Assembly: GCF_964340395.1 (NCBI RefSeq)
Contig: NC_135554.1
Coordinates: forward strand, 11,720,751 to 11,784,750
Origin: Glandiceps talaboti
Lineage: Eukaryota; Hemichordata; Enteropneusta; Spengelidae
Direction of reading: 5' to 3'
Length of the DNA: 64,000 nucleotides
The notes under the pieces are model-generated. The model made no database searches, was not told where the DNA came from, and saw only the letters and a list, made by a program, of their open reading frames with translations. Every line of letters begins with the position of its first letter. Within the stretch, counting starts at the first letter, position 1. The translations under genes and the position numbers were made by a program. Positions 40,101 to 43,100 of this stretch are shown here, in pieces.

Positions 40101-43100
40101 TCTAAAAATAAATAAAGTACAGATATTTCAGAAACTAAGATATTTGAAGTAGTAAGCAAACACAACACGGCATACCTGACCAAAATACTACCAAACCAAA
40201 CTGACCATAGACTTTCAATTAGGCAGCATGGCCTTTTTCACGTCCCACACACAAGGGTTTTGTTGTTACAAATTACCTAAAACAAACAGAACACAATCAC
40301 TGATGGACCGCAGGAATATAAAGGTATACAGTTCACAACTCAACATCACTGCCTGGGTGAACAGGGAAGATTCAAACACAGAACTGTTCATTTGTGTTCA
40401 TAGTGAAACACATGTAAAATGTAACATATCATGTACGTGCGCGTTATCAGTGCCTGTATTTTGTTTGTGTAATTTGTAACAAGTTGTGTGTGAGATGTAA
40501 ACACCACTGTCCTGCCAAATTTAAACTCTATAGTCTTTATGGTTTGGAAGTAAACGTTGTGAAATAACTACAGTGAAAGGTCACTGGAATTTTGTCAGTT
40601 AAGACAGATAATATAAATTATTTAGCTTACAGATTAATCCTTATTAACCTATTACTTTAATACAGATTCAATTATTGAAATCGGTGAATCAGTAAATCTT
40701 GATCCGTAATAAGTAATAAACAACTGTGGTTTCAACCTACACTTGTCACAGCTGGGTTTGCGAAGTCAACATTCCATATAGAGCATTTTCTTACCTATCA
40801 GTACTATCAAAGTTGATATATCCACAATGGGGATCGTATCCTTCCTGTACTCAAAACAACAGAGAGAGAGAGAGAGAGAGAGAGAGAGAGAGAGAGAGAG
40901 AGAGAGAGAGAGAGAGAGAGAGAGAGAGAGAGAGAGAGAGAGAGAGAGAGAGAGAGAGAGAGAGAGAGAGAGAGAGAGATGATAAATGCAGTTAAAAGGT
41001 ATACTTAAACTCAATTCTTGGATAAATCAGAAAATGATTCATTTTTCATTGTCTAGTTCTTTAGATACTGATGTCTGAAATGTATGTACAGAAAGTCGAG
41101 CAAACCTACCATGTGACTTGCAAAGGCTCAGAGTATATCATAGGAGAAAACAACATTCTAAAGTACTTTCCAACTAATATATATATATATATATATATAT
41201 ATATATATATATATATATATATACTATATATATTCCTTACCTATATATATATATATATATATATATATATATATATATATATATATATATATATATATAT
41301 ATATATATATATATATATATATATATATATATATATATATATATATATAACTCGGTGAGTATCAATCTGCTAAGACAGTGCTCTATACCGCAGTGGCAGA
41401 GCGTAATAGTTTTGGTAGTACTGGAACTCTTTCTTGGGTGTAACTCGGAGTTTCACGCATATTGCGATCATCAGACACTCAGTGTCTGATGATCGCAATA
41501 TGCGTGAAACTCCGAGTTACACCCAAGAAAGAGTTCCAGTACTACCAAAACTATATATATATATATATATATATATATATATATATATATATATATATAT
41601 ATATATATATATACTATATATATTCCTTACCTTTAAACTTCGAAACTTCAGTGTTACACGCTCCTTCAATTGCTTTGAATCGATCAATTCATAGGCCTTG
41701 ACAGAAATAACGGGTGTGTTTATCTTCACTATTTTAGCAGTAGCAGTGAGGGAAGTAACCCATGTTTTCAACCTGTTCAATGCAAAATGTGAGAATAATA
41801 ATACTTACCGTATAAAGTACTGTACATCAAAGAAATATATCTAGTGTTTCAGGCATTTTGCCATTAGATCTATCATTGTGACTGTGCAGAAAGTCAATAC
41901 CCTTTGGAGACAATATGCAGTCTTTTCGTAAAAATATCTTTACTTGCCGACTGACCAGTATGAGGTAAATGGAAATATTATGATGGTAGTTATCATAGAT
42001 TTCAAATATCCTTAACCATATTCTAAGATTACTGGTTTGACGCATGATATATTTTGTTCTGGACATGACTACATGTTACCTTATTAGGAGATTGTACGTG
42101 ACAGTGACTTAGCAATTCTACTGCAAACTGTTTGCCTAAAGCTGTACTTCATTCTCATCGGTGCGTACTGTTTATTAGAACTGGTATCAAATACTATCGT
42201 AGAGTATTATCTTCTCTAGATTGTCATTCTCTTAGTTACCCTTAATCAACGAAAGTGAATTCTTTCACTTACTTAGGTCCATCATCTTTATCTGGCAAAA
42301 CATTTTCCGGATCGAAGTGTACAATCGTTTGTACGACAATTGTGGCATCTGAAAAAAAATAAGATATTATGTTAAACATGTCCTGTATTTTGTTCATTAT
42401 TTTTTTTAACCGTTATCTTTATGTGTAAAACTTATCAAAAACACTAGAATTTTGATCTAATCAGACGTATACAAGTAGCATAGTCTTTCAAGCGTCATAT
42501 TGTACTTTACAACGGGTAACGGATAACCGAAGCGTTTCAGTATACTTGCCCCATTCACTTAGAAAGTTCATATCAGGTGTAAAATAACAATGTATTGACT
42601 ACCTTAATTATCAGCACAGTATGTGGTCCCTCTAAATGTAATCTATCTGTAAATAATGTTTACTCATTGGAAATGGTGGATCCTAGCTGATTGCTAATAA
42701 TAAAATGTGTCTATACCCTAGTTGAAGTTGTGTTTTGTCTGTCCGCGACAGTGTTTACAAATTGCCTATTTTTAGAGCGGCTGCTACTGGGCTGATAATC
42801 TAGTTCCTGATGGACCGTATTTCGTACTATATTATCTTCATACTATACTGTCTAGTCAATCCCATTACTCAAGGTGTTAATTTAACTGTGGTTCAACCCC
42901 ATGGTGGGCGAAGCGTAAACGGTGCATGTCAGTAGTAATTCATTACAAATTGACAGGCTGTCATCATTCTTCTCATGTTTCTAGAATCGATATGATATGC
43001 AAATGTCCAACCAGGACTCAACCTCCGCCACCTCCAGTCTGTTTAAACTAAAATCATATGGGGACACAACAACGTCATCATGTTTATATGAATGATGTAG

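Follow-up and report, generated by a model that had tools for sequence, protein, structure and literature searches.

Short head-to-head palindromes with hammerhead-like motifs derived from a Penelope-like element in Glandiceps talaboti

The window (the whole stretch of 64,000 nucleotides of Glandiceps talaboti DNA that was analysed) contains a perfect 149-bp palindrome, whose arms at 41406–41479 and 41481–41554 are exact reverse complements separated by a single base, C41480. The locus raises the question of how two identical arms, each carrying a hammerhead-like motif, come to lie head to head. We argue below that the palindrome is probably a short insertion of a young Penelope-like element (PLE): both ends of the broken target would have primed reverse transcription on a single PLE RNA, each from a start site of its own (A or B), and the 3' ends of the two cDNAs would then have been joined. 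Such palindromes offer a test of how PLEs insert.

Layout of the palindrome and its hammerhead-like motifs

The A arm (41406–41479, minus strand) corresponds to the start of a PLE pseudo-LTR (pLTR) and runs outwards from the centre. The B arm (41481–41554, plus strand) is the same pLTR start in inverted orientation, beginning at start site B and lacking the tail. The tail is a segment of 56 nt (41350–41405, minus strand) bounded by the putative start sites of reverse transcription, A (41350) and B (41405/41406), and is present on one side only. These 56 bases, which precede the left arm, have no inverted counterpart, and the palindrome is thus asymmetric relative to its surroundings. The centre, CACTCAGTG (41476–41484), is read as the junction of both cDNA 3' ends and coincides with the presumed RNA start, which lies approximately 32 bp 3' of a TATA box in coding copies of the element.

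The whole insertion is enclosed by a 66-bp exact direct repeat, probably a target-site duplication, with a left copy at 41177–41242, consisting of (AT)n and ACTATATATATTCCTTACCT, and a right copy at 41567–41632. The left copy was also recovered as a repeat family (D1, 69 nt, one mismatch). A (TA)n run (41243–41349) at the tailed (A) end separates the left duplication from the element, and it therefore apparently arrived with the insertion. At the B end, an (AT)n run (41555–41623) merges with the right target-site copy. The window holds no second inverted repeat with exact arms of at least 14 bases, a spacer of up to 20 bases and more than two kinds of base, and a tRNA scan found no tRNA.

An earlier note on this DNA had placed the palindrome in an intron of a receptor gene, a setting that was not established. 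When 19 open reading frames (ORFs) were compared with Pfam, the nearest matches were EGF-like and pentraxin-like stretches on the minus strand (49855–50115 and 52587–53399), and the palindrome lies 8–12 kb downstream of them on that strand. Elsewhere in the window, a match to Rfam 5S rRNA (81.2 bits) spans 33522–33640 (plus strand), with an apparent partial second copy of the 5S 3' part just upstream (about 33430–33460); the matched sequence is perhaps a diverged or mobile 5S-derived one.

The two hammerhead-like motifs are present as described in the note, one per arm, on opposite strands and in type I order. The A-arm motif (41438–41478, minus strand) consists of stem I (GUGU/ACAC), CUGAUGA, stem II (CGC/GCG), U.U at positions 10.1/11.1, GAAA, stem III (ACU/AGU), and U17. 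The B-arm motif (41482–41522, plus strand) was recognized by its core letters and by a pairing scan. From the centre outwards, each arm reads GUGU-CUGAUGA-UCGC..GCGU-GAA-ACU..AGU-U-ACAC, which includes the minimal type I core (CUGANGA...GAAA, A15.1-U16.1, and H17). The standard 10.1–11.1 pair beside the core, which is usual in hammerheads, is absent in the window motif and is replaced by U.U. We therefore call the motif hammerhead-like and regard its activity as uncertain.

A scan for the core letters plus three paired stems gave three matches in the window and none in 60 first-order random sequences of 64 kb. The third match is a diverged single motif of a related family (18480–18523, plus strand; stem I GUCGU/ACGGC). 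Diverged sites in other loci have varied stem I sequences (GUCGU/ACGGC, GUUGU/ACAAC, and AUUACAC/GUGUAAU), and because the scan required pairing, the evidence lies in this spread of stem sequences rather than in pairing alone. In an alignment of nine of 13 aligned motifs, from which four with other stem lengths were left out, 97.0% of 99 cells pair and four pairs are altered on both sides. Pairing falls to 18–48% (at most 47.8%) when the partner is slid by one to three columns, and the count of further pair types was reached by 124 of 500 shuffles. Loose matches to the pattern occur in at least 120 stretches in viral contigs and in 37 in prokaryotic genomes.

Fragments resembling LINE reverse transcriptases were seen by eye at 16028–16472 and 18630–19000 (both plus strand), and Pfam gave no match for 16137–16472. 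The second fragment lies directly downstream of the single motif at 18485.

The Rfam check proposed in the note goes partly against the claim: Rfam hammerhead models give no match to the palindrome up to E = 10, whereas the fold covaries in the nine family motifs. At the gathering score there is no hammerhead match in the window, and the motif at 18485 stays without one at E = 10. A relative whose stem I has 7 bp likewise goes unrecognized by Rfam, and no hammerhead is found among the best 150 of 186 rows for 16 loci. Because Rfam misses this relative and the family motifs covary, the fold is supported without an Rfam match. The strong miRNA-like Rfam rows are what any long perfect hairpin yields.

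Could the locus act as a double ribozyme, or as a regulatory hairpin of a host gene? Both arms retain a pairable hammerhead core, and the RNA of the palindrome is computed to fold into one very stable hairpin of 73 bp (-136.8 kcal/mol). However, this hairpin would compete with either hammerhead fold, which leaves double-ribozyme action of the locus unsupported, and the locus is one of many near-identical insertions. Judged from its sequence, a role of either kind seems very improbable.

A palindrome family and its coding relative

A search of the host genome (590 Mb, 47 contigs) with 41350–41554, as the note had advised, revealed a large repeat family. The 205-bp tail-plus-palindrome sequence has 40 full-length copies at 98–100% identity, these being the best 40 of 721 candidates. 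Of these scored places, 39 of 40 gave 43 palindromes, including four extra copies in flanks (L178 was dropped, being the same as L170). A diverged copy from L189 served as a second query (40 scored of 910 candidates) and gave 31 further palindromes from 30 loci, once L198 had been excluded as the same place as L189. The 74 parsed palindromes each consist of (TA)n, the 56-bp tail, the 74-bp arm, a short centre, the inverted arm, and (AT)n. These counts, like the orientation counts below, describe the best-scoring matches of larger candidate sets and do not amount to a census. Solo and tandem copies are present as well, so that the head-to-head form is one product among several. In this family that form is common, and not the abnormal arrangement that it had been taken for.

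Flanks of at least 150 nt are common on both sides to only four pairs among the 74 copies, three of these pairs being neighbours at one place, and other PLE copies are frequent in the flanks. The insertion site is mostly (TA)n, with fewer than six bases of it in 5 of 74 copies at the tailed end and in 2 of 74 at the other end. A target-site duplication with unique sequence is found in one of 74, the copy in the window; elsewhere duplications are unrecognizable because the targets are (TA)n, and the low count weighs against the two-ended reading developed below. Perfect palindromes are a classic type of assembly or library foldback artefact, and the note had raised this worry. It is removed by the 74 parsed copies at different places. 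Moreover, the palindrome ends at fixed element positions and not at read ends, and its left side runs 56 bp past the inverted part. We see next to no chance that the structure is an artefact.

The suspected link to a Penelope element is borne out by L178 (the extended L170), in which a GIY-YIG-type ORF and its 3' UTR run straight into the hammerhead/tail unit. The order there is contiguous: ORF, 3' UTR, CTCTATATATACAG, CAGAGTGTCTGATGA..., hammerhead motif, tail, and (TA)33, with CAGAGTGTCTGATGA beginning approximately 32 bp past the TATA. From sequence, the arms are recognizable as the pLTR start of a young GIY-YIG PLE. L180, which represents a second subfamily, repeats this order between 3' UTR and hammerhead and has an ORF end inverted alongside. 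Of 30 GIY-YIG loci inspected, 29 (all except L241) have the unit at their 3' end or close to it.

The window itself contains a coding PLE remnant, with a C-terminal GIY-YIG-type ORF (50675–51028, minus strand) that resembles the L178 ORF by eye, and a TATA box and presumed RNA start (CTCTATATAAACAG..AAATCAGTTGTCT, 50465–50510, minus strand), after which the PLE sequence ends. A TATA box and initiator are present in the pLTR of three copies (L178, L180, and the window), with the TATA approximately 32 bp before the central CA. This region is presumed to be a promoter with its RNA start at the palindrome centre.

A genome search with the ORF gave 150 scored matches of 1497 candidates, in which open frames are at most 796 aa in all but one (a frame of 2185 aa). 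At E <= 0.001, the C-terminal part has 853 relatives, among them one annotated as GIY-YIG domain-containing protein; for the longer frame there are 3986, of which P0123 bears PF01541. The ORF query itself matches no Pfam family and gives only a sub-threshold GRDP-like hit. L246 has a 630-aa open frame with a YRDDG-type motif, recognized by eye, which may mark a telomerase-like reverse transcriptase; Pfam and PDB sequence searches with this frame gave no match.

The occurrence of tandem or inverted copies with an optional tail agrees with a PLE pseudo-LTR. Tandem repeats of 150–450 bp, as expected of animal retrozymes, were not found among the parsed copies, which are inverted pairs. L197 contains a local repeat of inverted pairs, and the regular tandems that were seen are of the 2.5-kb coding element. 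A regular coding-PLE array of three tandem GIY-YIG ORFs with 2526-bp spacing is located at G000 C11:14112757–14118198 (plus strand).

More hammerhead-like families are present in the same genome (L189:959, L166:2559, and L175:1316 on the plus strand and L166:1924 on the minus strand), some with the standard pair beside the core and with a stem I of up to 7 bp. There are also older, diverged head-to-head hammerhead pairs (L158:1256–1281, L190:367–445, and L169 at about 2050–2076), which suggest that older PLE families also inserted in this form.

One tail per insertion and the making of the junction

The tail is present on the left in 74 of 74 palindromes (by alignment) and on the right in none of the 74 (by exact word and by alignment). 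A two-tailed copy would hold the whole query and score equally, so that its absence is informative; tailless copies would escape the query, and B-B palindromes would score lower. Across L158–L257, 86 close head-to-head unit pairs comprise 83 A-B, no A-A, no B-B, and three partial pairs, although these are not 86 independent sites, as some loci overlap, and the loci were mostly picked by A-B queries. At L187:852–1000, a tail-plus-arm copy without an inverted partner ends in a small inverted repeat, CACTCCA..TGGAGTG.

In the mechanism that we favour, the PLE protein would cleave both target strands in TA-rich DNA. One target end would prime at site A, so that its cDNA includes the 56-nt tail; the second would prime at site B (less often elsewhere), 56 nt further 5' on what is presumably the same RNA molecule. 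Each cDNA would extend until the RNA ends or the enzyme stops. To form a short palindrome, both cDNAs would pass the uncleaved hammerhead to the RNA 5' end, and the cell would then link their 3' ends by error-prone end joining, leaving identical arms head to head. Copying would be confined to the 5' region of the RNA, and the palindrome would accordingly be short.

The centres are of 48 kinds in 73 parsed copies (20 among 42 in the young subfamily and 28 among 31 in the older one), the centre of the truncated hybrid L197:930 not being parsable. Six pairs of centres are mirror images. Compared with the L178 sequence upstream of the hammerhead, the young centres contain blunt joins, overlaps of one to three bases, and short fillers, and the fillers in L225 and L223, among others, resemble patches of nearby element sequence. 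All four combinations of the tails TAAG and TATAAG with the centres CACTCAGTG and CACTCTGTG are present. In the older subfamily, the same loop II haplotype occurs on both arms in 21 of 31 palindromes (shuffled mean 6.0, maximum 15, in 20,000 shuffles). Varied centres together with concordant arms indicate that joins are mostly made afresh and that arms are mostly copied from one template. Against the two-ended reading, 10 of the 31 older palindromes are discordant in loop II. Both discordant haplotypes of L213, L216, and L219 occur in other arms, and L197:930 combines arms from two subfamilies. It follows that two RNAs were sometimes used, or that arms mutated later.

A ready-made foldback unit might instead move whole, its centre eroding at each site. 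Palindrome centres are unstable, and such a unit could account for the one centre common to 12 young copies and for two unusual centres that occur twice each (L189/L200 and L189/L193). These repeated centres imply that some junctions recur or that some copies are related. However, nearly all of the older centres are distinct, and the reassortment of centre and tail variants argues against inheritance of one ready-made palindrome. In coding copies the TATA box lies upstream of the centre, outside the palindrome, and these copies share the head-to-head form with differing truncation points, neither of which favours a mobile foldback unit. We consider its movement an unlikely origin of the family. 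Two other candidates were rejected: a twin-priming event unique to this locus was dropped once the genome-wide family appeared, and a cap-derived extra base at the centre was made unnecessary by centre diversity.

The head-to-head arrangement is also seen in long coding copies. Among neighbouring GIY-YIG pairs less than 6 kb apart, drawn from the 150 scored matches of the 1497 candidates, 18 of 23 are head to head (P = 1e-7 against one quarter and 0.005 against one half), five are tandem, and none is tail to tail. Both 3' ends can be read in eleven head-to-head loci that have one or two coding arms (L230, L240/L256, L242, L243, L244, L248, L249, L252, L253, L235, and L247); L228 and L233 were left out, as one 3' end is outside the stretch. 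Eight of the eleven have one A end and one B end, and none is A-A or B-B. Among the eight, the B end of L242 is 6 nt short and the A end of L248 runs off the locus. The remaining three (L249, L235, and L247, the last two of which are complex) have one end at neither site and thus count against the two-ended reading. In coding loci, the two arms seldom reach the same template position. Of the eight A-B loci, five have a longer tailless arm (L240/L256, L242, L243, L248, and L253) and three a longer tailed arm.

These arm lengths bear on self-priming, in which the 3' end of an antisense RNA or of the first cDNA folds back and is extended with its own strand as template, and which is the reading published for head-to-head PLE palindromes in Adineta vaga (PMC3846280). 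Self-priming yields identical arms automatically, and L230 and L249, in which the arms differ by 30 nt and 8 nt at the 5' end, resemble hairpin loops. A copied arm cannot, however, outreach the tailed arm. In the five loci listed, the tailless arm extends further 5' and so is no copy of the tailed arm, which excludes self-priming of the tailed strand there. Several centres likewise carry PLE sequence further on the tailless side, for example CACTCAGAGTG. Mirror-image centres, and fillers that are unmatched or patch-like (L219 and L225), would also be unexpected. As read from their junctions, these loci contradict self-priming, and we judge it improbable as the source of the palindromes.

The two-ended reading extends, more tentatively, to PLEs at large. 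They may commonly insert from both ends, using one RNA and two favoured, mutually exclusive start sites, with the cDNA 3' ends joined and no second strand copied from the first cDNA. If so, published PLE tails mark which target end used which start site.

Comparison with known systems

Young and short insertions are numerous in this genome, and their centres apparently preserve the joins between two cDNAs, which makes the question of insertion directly countable. No statement of a one-tail rule or of a two-ended PLE model was found in the open-access literature searched. In human LINE-1 twin priming, priming on the RNA by the second target end yields an inverted segment, and such inversions seldom copy one template stretch twice. 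In contrast, both cDNAs here would copy the same stretch to approximately the same end, and the product is therefore a palindrome.

Head-to-head PLE palindromes were already reported in 2013 and ascribed to self-priming (PMC3846280). In the Penelope families of Adineta vaga described there, pLTRs are inverted head to head with palindromes where they meet, and one of the two may carry a short tail; the authors prefer self-priming on an antisense template but leave room for a sense transcript. The family described here resembles them in its inverted pLTRs, junction palindromes, optional one-sided tail, TATA box and initiator, and AT-rich targets, as reported in PMC3846280. It differs in its abundance of solo pLTR-only palindromes, which end at the presumed RNA start and have one tail in every parsed copy. 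The present junction data contradict the self-priming reading as it is given in that paper.

According to the main text of PMC11167929 (2024), purified PLE protein cuts and extends the two strands of the target, with a preference for AT-rich DNA, and initiates at two internal sites. No difference in start site between the strands is reported in vitro, which weighs against the two-ended reading. The element in question, PAc (a Poseidon PLE from Anolis carolinensis), resembles the present one, as we read it, in several respects (PMC11167929): its tail is delimited by two neighbouring internal start sites, both strands are cleaved and extended, targets are AT-rich, a hammerhead lies at the pLTR-ORF junction, and the RNA substrate is unprocessed. 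All 73 palindromes with a parsed centre cross the predicted cleavage site on both arms, and the queries favour such copies. The copied RNA would thus have been uncleaved, in line with the in vitro work presented in PMC11167929. Copying through an intact hammerhead is relevant to the timing of ribozyme action relative to reverse transcription. In contrast to PAc, each short palindrome here would use both sites once each, and the joining of two cDNAs is not described in the main text of PMC11167929.

Animal retrozymes are described in PMC7229834 as tandem repeats of 150–450 bp with type I hammerheads that are expressed as circles. They share with the family described here a type I hammerhead within a short non-coding retroelement, whereas here the element is an inverted pair derived from a coding PLE. 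In the same account (PMC7229834), the minimal hammerhead type, which is the type found here, is assigned to PLEs and Terminons.
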